Below, piece by piece: positions 5,836-52,662 of a stretch of 64,000 nucleotides of DNA (positions are counted from its first letter, which is position 1; every line of letters starts with the position of its first letter). Under the pieces are notes generated by a model. It worked only from the letters and a program-made list of their open reading frames with translations, had not been told where the DNA came from and did not search any database. Position numbers and translations under genes: made by a program. Source of the DNA: Polyangia bacterium (GTDB taxonomy: Bacteria; Myxococcota_A; Polyangia; Nannocystales; Nannocystaceae); contig JAUHWG010000009.1 of the NCBI GenBank assembly GCA_030424595.1, positions 124,001 to 188,000 of the forward strand. The letters run 5' to 3'.

Positions 5836-6060
5836 GGCAGCAGCACAGCCCGCGCACAGAGGCGAGGCAGACTCCTGAGGCCTAGTGCCGAGGCGCAGCA
5901 CCACAGCTCGCGCCCAGAGGCGAGGCGGACTCCTGAGGCCTAGTGCCGAGGCGCAGCACCACAGCCCGCGCCCAGAGGCGAGGCGGACTCCTGAGGCCTA
6001 GTGCCGAGGCGCAGCACCACAGCCCGCGCCCAGAGGCGAGGCGGACTCATCCGGAGCTGC
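5836..6060. repeat. 58-bp tandem repeat array (composite repeat locus A, left arm)
   Basis: Units begin GAGG at 5864, 5922, 5980 and 6038, an exact 58-bp period. The central units are nearly identical and the outer ones degenerate. The array leads directly into the conserved core at 6121. Units of the same period and clear similarity precede the second core copy at 51876-52049. No variable spacers, so this is not a CRISPR array. The gap 5717-6484 contains no credible gene. Confidence 0.92.
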
Positions 6061-6120
6061 GTGGTGGAACAGCGGCTCGGCCCATGTCCTCAGCTCATCT
6101 TCTCAGGAGGACGAGCCGCT

Positions 6121-6240
6121 GGGGACGGGCGAGGGGGGGCGTCGCGAACGAGTCTAGGACGCGCATCGACCCCTTGGGACAAGGGGTCGACGCGCGCTCC
6201 GCCCTGTCTGAGAGAGTGGCGCCCCCCCTTGACCGGCCCG
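6121..6240 (+). repeat. Conserved 120-bp structured repeat core, copy A
   Basis: Matches 52131-52250 at 119 of 120 positions (C at 6202, A at 52212). A long imperfect stem closes the block: 6122-6141 pairs with 6220-6239, including an exact 10-bp G-tract/C-tract helix (6132-6141 with 6220-6229). Inside is a strong hairpin: 6166-6176 pairs perfectly with 6180-6190 around a GGA loop, and it extends through a further 5-bp helix (6160-6164/6192-6196). The single substitution falls in a predicted unpaired segment. Similarity continues at lower level for about 60 bp on each side. Could be a structured RNA gene, a strong bidirectional terminator or a non-autonomous mobile repeat; strand is assigned only for reference. 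Confidence 0.85.
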
Positions 6241-6302
6241 CGCCTCAGCCTCCGCTCTTCCCTCACATTGTCGCGCCCGAGGGCGACCTCCAGGAGGCAG
6301 GG

Positions 6303-6372
6303 AAGAGCGGCGCCCAAAGAGCGGCGCCCAAAGAGCGGCACCCGAAGAGAGGCGCCCAAAGAGCGGCACCCC
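6303..6372. repeat. 14-bp tandem repeat array (locus A, right arm)
   Basis: Five units of the form AAGAGCGGCGCCCA. The same 7-mer building blocks (GAAGAGC, GGCGCCC) form a much longer array after core copy B. A partial duplicate of the core's right flank (CCCCCCTTGACCGGCC-like) follows at about 6368-6405. Confidence 0.9.
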
Positions 6373-51874: not shown

Positions 51875-51875
51875 C

Positions 51876-52049
51876 GAGGCGAACTCACCAGCCGTCGTGT
51901 GGTGGCGAAGCACTACGGTCTGCGGGCACAAGTGAGGTGAACACATCAGCCGTCGTGCGGTGGCGAAGCACTACAGCCTGCAGGCAGGGACGAGGTGAAC
52001 TCATAGGGGTCAGGCGGTGGCGGAGCATTGCAGCCTGCGCGCAGACGCG
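51876..52049. repeat. 58-bp tandem repeat array (composite locus B, left arm)
   Basis: Units begin GAGG at 51876, 51934 and 51992, exactly 58 bp apart, the same period as at locus A. Aligned by eye with the locus A unit, roughly two thirds of positions match, including the central GGCG-AGCAC-AC segment. The gap 51758-52696 contains no credible gene. Confidence 0.88.
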
Positions 52050-52130
52050 GCAGACGCGTCAGGAGTTGTGAGGTGGACAAGCGGCTCGACCCATGTCCTC
52101 AGCTCACCTTCGCTAGGAGGACGAGCTGCG

Positions 52131-52250
52131 GGGGACGGGCGAGGGGGGGCGTCGCGAACGAGTCTAGGACGCGCATCGACCCCTTGGGACAAGGGGTCGA
52201 CGCGCGCTCCGACCTGTCTGAGAGAGTGGCGCCCCCCCTTGACCGGCCCG
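52131..52250 (+). repeat. Conserved 120-bp structured repeat core, copy B
   Basis: Same orientation as copy A (6121-6240) and differing from it only at 52212. Keeps the closing stem (52132-52151 with 52230-52249) and the GGA-loop hairpin (52176-52186 with 52190-52200). Flanks of about 50 bp upstream (from GCGGCTCGACCCATGTCC) and 60 bp downstream remain clearly similar to copy A but with many substitutions. Confidence 0.85.
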
Positions 52251-52315
52251 TGTCTCAGCCTCCGCCCCTCCCCCACATGGTCGCGCCTGGGGTTGACCTT
52301 CAGGAGCAGGGGAGG

Positions 52316-52662
52316 GCGGCGTCCGAGGATCGAAGATTGGACTCCGAAGAGCGGAGCCCGAAGAGCGGAGTCGAAGGGCGGCGTCCGAGGATCGAAGATT
52401 GGAGTCCGAAGAGCGAGGATCGAAGAGCGAGGATCGAAGAGCGAAGAGCGAAGAGCGGCGCCCGAAGAGCGGCGCCCGAAGAGCGGAGCCCGAAGAGCGG
52501 AGCCCGAAGAGCGGAGCCCGAAGAGCGGAGCCCGAAGAGCGGCGCCCGAAGGGCGAGGATCGAAGAGCGGCGCCCGAAGAGCGAAGAGCGGCGCCCGAAG
52601 AGCGAAGAGCGGCGCCCGAAGAGCGAAGAGCAGCACCCGAACACCCGAACAACCGAAGAGCG
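52316..52662. repeat. Expanded 7/14-bp tandem array (locus B, right arm)
   Basis: Built from 7-mers GAAGAGC, GGCGCCC, GGAGCCC and GAGGATC in varying order, about 45 7-mers in all. The GAAGAGC-GGCGCCC pair equals the 14-bp unit that follows core copy A. Confidence 0.9.

Follow-up and report, generated by a model that had tools for sequence, protein, structure and literature searches.

A dispersed intergenic hairpin element with a conserved internal loop, probably of an undescribed family, in a Polyangia bacterium

Repeats of the ERIC, BOX, RUP and Correia type are imperfect palindromes of ~100-300 bp that lie in intergenic DNA in both orientations. Among structured RNAs, invariant internal-loop residues held between freely varying helices typically mark a molecule that binds a protein or is catalytic. 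REPINs and REP elements are high-copy, intergenic, hairpin-forming and non-autonomous, and they are often clustered or inverted (PMC3116915, PMC3733652). Retron-derived msDNA-like repeats (RMSD) are ascribed to Nannocystis exedens in the title of Lampson and Rice 1997, as that title is cited in PMC6868368.

The DNA analysed here, called the window, is a stretch of 64,000 nucleotides (G000:C52:124001-188000) from the 9.54-Mb, 65-contig assembly of this genome (G000). A preliminary description had reported that a block at 6121-6240 is 119/120 identical, in the same orientation, to 52131-52250 and can be folded into one closed structure; both statements were confirmed, with an MFE of -83.2 kcal/mol and the sole difference at 6202. 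The BLASTN search of the genome that it had proposed recovered the second copy at E=4e-67, a value that excludes chance for this pair, and found further copies. The flanks, described as diverged, are indeed less alike and their similarity fades, yet they are still related, with gapped similarity to the family consensus over 6063-6296 and 52072-52293. Likewise, position 6202 had been placed in a predicted loop; it is unpaired in the MFE fold of copy 1 but paired in the family consensus, in a GUC/GAC helix. Across the family the loop strand GACCTGTCTGA has an A here that hardly ever changes; copy 1 has C instead and so departs from the family at a loop base that is almost fixed.

The block is not a special pair. 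In this genome blastn gave 65 matches, 40 of them full copies, and the covariance-model search that had also been suggested, run with a model (R1) built on 42 copies and followed by curation, placed the element at 78 distinct positions, some at contig ends. The near-identity of the window copies, taken earlier as a signal in itself, is therefore that of one close pair within a large family. The hairpin is present in all 78 copies, and none of them lies inside a predicted gene. The sister species (G001) has at least 8 copies, and a third genome has 3. Similarity between copies peaks over a 133-base core and fades over ~100 bases on each side. As regards MITE features, the arms differ among copies and the ends are gradual, for which reason a target-site duplication is not definable. 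The features of the two window copies are as follows, with columns referring to the alignments A1 (42 copies) and A2 (34 divergent copies).

6063-6296, + strand: copy 1, whole stretch resembling the family consensus (5' hairpin, core hairpin and 3' arm region; blastn 87%, L001:1464-1697)
6071-6120, + strand: copy 1, accessory 5' hairpin; AGCGGCTCG at 6071-6079 pairs with CGAGCCGCT at 6112-6120 in the MFE fold of 6060-6260
6123-6145, + strand: copy 1, 5' arm of the outer stem (A1 columns 2-24, covarying helix 1)
6150-6157, + strand: copy 1, 5' strand of the conserved internal loop, GAGTCTAG (columns of A1 and A2 that vary hardly or not at all)
6157-6200, + strand: copy 1, variable, covarying inner hairpin, GGACGCGC..GCGCTCC (A1/A2 helix 3)
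6201-6211, + strand: copy 1, 3' strand of the conserved internal loop, GCCCTGTCTGA here and GACCTGTCTGA in the family
6216-6238, + strand: copy 1, 3' arm of the outer stem (A1 columns 97-120)
52072-52293, + strand: copy 2, whole stretch resembling the family consensus (blastn 89%, L002:1458-1679)
52132-52264, + strand: copy 2, core hairpin region as located by covariance model R1 (155.9 bits, G000:C52:176132-176264)
52160-52167, + strand: copy 2, 5' strand of the conserved internal loop
52211-52221, + strand: copy 2, 3' strand of the conserved internal loop, GACCTGTCTGA
5837-6048, no strand: 58-bp tandem repeats adjoining copy 1, 3.7 units (TRF), missing, like the element, in the sister species
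6303-6371, no strand: 14-bp tandem repeats on the 3' side of copy 1 (TRF)
51875-52038, no strand: 58-bp tandem repeats adjoining copy 2, 2.8 units (TRF)
52344-52625, no strand: 14-bp tandem repeats past copy 2, ~21 units (TRF)

The upstream block that holds the accessory 5' hairpin is conserved in many copies, and in some the 5' part is itself tandemly repeated (5 units of 96 bp at C43, 3 of ~120 bp at C62). Both window copies have 58-bp tandem repeats on their 5' side and 14-bp repeats on their 3' side, and tandem units also occur at three other copies (L003, L020 and L136, where they include a truncated hairpin); the arrays look as if provoked by the hairpin, or as if they were themselves part of the element.

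Every copy forms a long hairpin in which the outer stem and the inner hairpin vary and the internal loop between them (GAGTCTAG / GACCTGTCTGA) is nearly invariant. Over the 42 copies of A1 the loop strands hardly change, and the stem pairs swap types: 99.5% of cells are paired, and 54 cells show double changes, as against 8.9 +/- 2.5 after shuffling. In A2 there are 160 double-change cells versus 44 +/- 7.5 in the shuffled alignments, with 26 covarying pairs, and the covariation signal is lost when the partner is slid by 1-3 columns. Covariation beyond the phylogeny-free and slid controls was found for helices 1 and 3 only; helix 2, which adjoins the loop, has none in A2, and its putative pairing is supported by conservation only. 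The preliminary description had allowed that the block might occur at only two places and lack covariation; what was found instead is ~78 copies in which helices 1 and 3 covary. A count of wobble pairs in A1 over the paired cells, with two mismatch-prone pairs included manually, gave 135 G.T against 27 A.C, nearly all A.C at one pair. A modest bias of the same kind exists in other taxa, where the outer arms of 28 other copies have 22 G.T and 9 A.C (p=0.03). The excess of G.T over A.C implies that the strand as written seems to be the one whose folding is kept.

Relatives of the element are sporadic in other taxa. Among 318 genomes of the class the loop pattern was found 72 times in G000, 6 times in G001 and 3 times in G012, well above the reversed-pattern control; class-wide matches outside these three genomes were rejected, the inspected ones folding without arms and their numbers lying near that control. 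Scanning the whole collection with the loop form of this genus returned no matches, and the broader form given below succeeded. A wider covariance model (R2) picked out, by covariance score, one genome of another family, and this genome holds a second, inverted copy ~135 bp away that was not used in finding it. From this other-family form a stricter exact pattern was derived (CGAGTYCC..CGAGGACCTGTCTGAG), whose chance expectation is ~0.1 in 257 Gb; it matched 19 contigs in several phyla. The carriers are two Myxococcales bins, one bin each of Krumholzibacteriia, Eisenbacteria, Clostridia and Bdellovibrionia, and two Olsenella; the Myxococcales bins are probably G001 and G098, because one bin repeats sequences of the former and the other those of the latter, and the unreliable gene-context calls of one such bin (palsa_1104) were left out. 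Two further copies of the stricter-pattern form occur in G008, of the same family.

Each of these copies whose two arms are both contained in the contig has its own outer stem of 20-30 bp. The outer arms, which formed no part of the search pattern, pair over 18-26 bp (mean 22.8 of 26 bases, 36 sequences), a mean that falls to 13.9 +/- 4.6 if each arm is given a partner from another taxon; arm identity between taxa is only 36%. Arm GC varies with the host, being 33% in the Clostridia and Bdellovibrionia copies versus 71-85% in Myxococcota. Some of the foreign-phylum copies come from one MAG contig each; since the composition of the AT-rich arms differs from that of Myxococcota, mis-binning is unlikely for the AT-rich copies. 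Selection, which the preliminary description had proposed among other causes, is thus supported at the level of structure, by covariation far above the shuffles and a loop conserved across phyla.

Several of these relatives have features of their own. In the two Olsenella genomes (L271:6-48, L272:3794-3836) the hairpin adjoins proS, apparently in opposite orientation relative to this gene, as if it had been flipped. In the Krumholzibacteriia bin (L263, L264, L274) the copies share the 12 bp of outer stem next to the loop, and farther out each copy has a stem sequence of its own that is still complementary; partial repeats of GAGGACCTGTCTGAGCAGGGGACTTGTGTCTTC stand beside L264. The Bdellovibrionia copy (L270:4657-4774) is a single AT-rich palindrome whose arms pair over ~48 bases, located between apparently divergent HAD and GNAT genes. 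One match on a viral contig was rejected when it folded without paired outer arms, and a second scan of viral contigs gave none; plasmids, phages and E. coli contained no copies, or short matches without the second loop strand.

The history of individual loci points to turnover. In the sister species both neighbour genes of copy 1 are kept at 85-87% identity without the element between them, and the gap between them measures ~90-100 bp there versus 768 bp here. Such an empty site could in principle reflect loss in the sister species instead. The incomplete assembly of that species yielded no counterpart of the second window locus. Two other loci carry copies in both species (L104/L147 and L108/L111), on the same side of the shared gene and in the same orientation relative to it. 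Core identity between these orthologous copies is only 66% and 60%, with species-specific stems, and the G001 copies have 76-88% core identity to their nearest copy within G001. In G000, 12 copies have their nearest relative within 100 kb on the same contig, as compared with 2.0 +/- 1.7 by permutation, and the two window copies are one such nearby closest pair. This pattern of identities agrees with copies spreading, or being converted, inside each lineage. Recent copying or gene conversion, as suggested for the window pair, thus gains support from the greater-than-expected likeness of nearby copies and from the empty site; movement of the element is what copy number and the empty site, taken together, suggest.

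We consider it fairly probable that the block forms the core of a hairpin element, non-autonomous and dispersed between genes, which belongs to a new family and is conserved for an RNA (or single-strand) structure around its loop. The internal loop, held between two stiff helices, would be the recognition or active part, and the stems would only need to pair. Because the wobble pairs favour one strand, the loop would act mainly in RNA form, in transcripts that run on beyond gene ends through intergenic DNA, and a machinery acting in trans, not encoded beside the copies, may spread the copies and homogenise them within a genome. More tentatively, and with appreciably less confidence, the element might represent an undescribed class of non-coding RNA, present in several phyla and a mobile repeat in some genomes, whose conserved internal-loop core binds a conserved protein or is catalytic. 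The core proposed for such an RNA reads GAGUYCCGCAG..CGAGGACCUGUCUGAG in most taxa and GAGUCUAG..CGACCUGUCUGAG in this genus.

The alternative that survives best, which we rate as possible though rather doubtful, is that the hairpin acts as single-stranded DNA, a selfish REPIN- or MITE-like unit whose loop is the site of a transposase or recombinase supplied in trans, with no part played by RNA. High copy number, sporadic distribution, the empty site, local spread, opposite orientations and inverted pairs would all be expected of such a unit; REPINs have a life cycle of this kind (PMC3116915), and G.T pairs occur in single-stranded DNA too. Yet no RAYT (Y1_Tnp, PF01797) was matched in G000, an assembly 93% complete, whereas 5 of 14 control genomes gave matches; no transposase was seen among the scanned neighbour proteins of single-copy loci; and there is no GTAG-tagged short palindrome, inspection of the aligned element consensus showing no unpaired GTAG tag at the palindrome foot. 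CGTC does occur, in the stem of the 5' accessory hairpin and not as an unpaired tag, and the stems are much longer than the 8-9 bp of the CGTC superfamily. Palindromes that are read by an enzyme should keep the sequence of their stems, and here the stems vary and the loop is kept.

Genomic placement, based on a simple codon-usage gene caller, counts in favour of the preferred reading and bears as well on a further and unlikely explanation, namely a protein-bound hairpin after genes that serves as terminator or stabiliser of mRNA 3' ends and is spread by recombination, not by movement of its own. Of 70 copies, 26 lie between convergent genes, 44 in tandem gene pairs and none in divergent gaps; the 55 element-free gaps of >=100 bp comprise 8 convergent, 31 tandem and 16 divergent ones. 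Both the absence from divergent gaps in G000 (0/70 with a copy vs 16/55 without, p=5e-7) and the enrichment in convergent gaps (26/70 vs 8/55, p=0.005) suit a hairpin working at gene ends. On the other hand, copies in tandem gene pairs have no preferred orientation (23/21), distances to the genes are long, often 200-400 bp, and there is no U-run. The avoidance of divergent genes does not hold throughout the family, because the Bdellovibrionia copy stands between apparently divergent ORFs. No neighbour gene family is common to the loci among 134 neighbour proteins, beyond four DUF4215 proteins.

An origin as RMSD repeats is highly improbable. This genome belongs to the same broad bacterial group as Nannocystis, and its only RT is of a retron (type XIII, PADLOC); against such an origin, no copy lies within the 16 kb around that RT, model R1 gave nothing significant at 26 RT loci of the family, neither loop strand is visible on inspection in the conserved non-coding block that precedes nine other retron-type RTs, and copies occur in the Clostridia bin, Olsenella and Bdellovibrionia with no retron seen nearby. 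The candidate was accordingly rejected. The retron locus itself (L032:2363-15933; G000:C15, ~86.4-99.9 kb) holds a complete-looking type XIII operon by PADLOC models (HEAT/ARM, SWIM, RT), with a gene for an HSP90-like ATPase downstream and no msr-msd seen beside the RT. The nine retron-type RTs of related genomes (L170-L178) share a well-conserved upstream non-coding block of ~250 bp, msr-msd-like in look, with no Rfam match at E<=1 in the loci searched. An assembly or repeat artefact, to which contigs ending inside copies (C33, C21, C38, C7) might point, is virtually dismissed: the copies have unique flanks and distinct stem sequences, an independently assembled genome holds orthologues of them, and unrelated genomes hold relatives.

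The preferred reading, a structured element that spreads within genomes and acts as RNA, probably describes a family that has gone unrecorded. Rfam 15 contains no family that scores above the gathering threshold at the position of an element (chance matches only, and none even at E<=5-10), in keeping with the earlier remark that no named family matches; a literature search for the letters of the loop gave only unrelated hits among the matches listed. No catalogue searched contains the loop. That ~25 nearly fixed loop bases are kept across phyla, with their surroundings rewritten and pairing maintained, is a strong sign of real function. If the element works as RNA, it is a new motif; if as DNA, it is a hairpin repeat recognized by its loop and not by its stems. 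With it one can test by what route REP-like repeats spread when no RAYT is present, and why they keep their structure, and the family provides a search model for annotating such repeats.

Compared with the known systems, the element shares with retron msr-msd and with the RMSD repeats of Nannocystis exedens a long hairpin, a myxobacterial host group and a repetitive nature, but it has no similarity to the retron loci tested and no copy beside an RT. It resembles structured RNA motifs of Rfam, including ribozyme classes, in having invariant internal-loop residues between freely varying helices, and, unlike them, it is found mostly as dispersed repeats. With REPs and REPINs it has in common high copy number (78 copies here), intergenic location and hairpin structure. 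Yet REPs are 20-40 bp long with stems of 5-13 bp, a GTAG or CGTC tag and, for the GTAG type, a RAYT, whereas this element has stems of 20-30 bp of variable sequence, an internal loop conserved across phyla and no RAYT found. On the best reading of these comparisons, it would be REPIN- or ERIC-like in lifestyle and lack the defining features of REPs that were tested. ERIC, BOX, RUP and Correia-type repeats are similar to it in size, imperfect palindromic form, intergenic position and occurrence in both orientations, and the repeated modules of BOX recall the tandem 5' units of this element. Those repeats, however, are lineage-restricted and conserved in sequence, whereas the loop motif of the present element persists in several phyla, with stems that have diverged completely.
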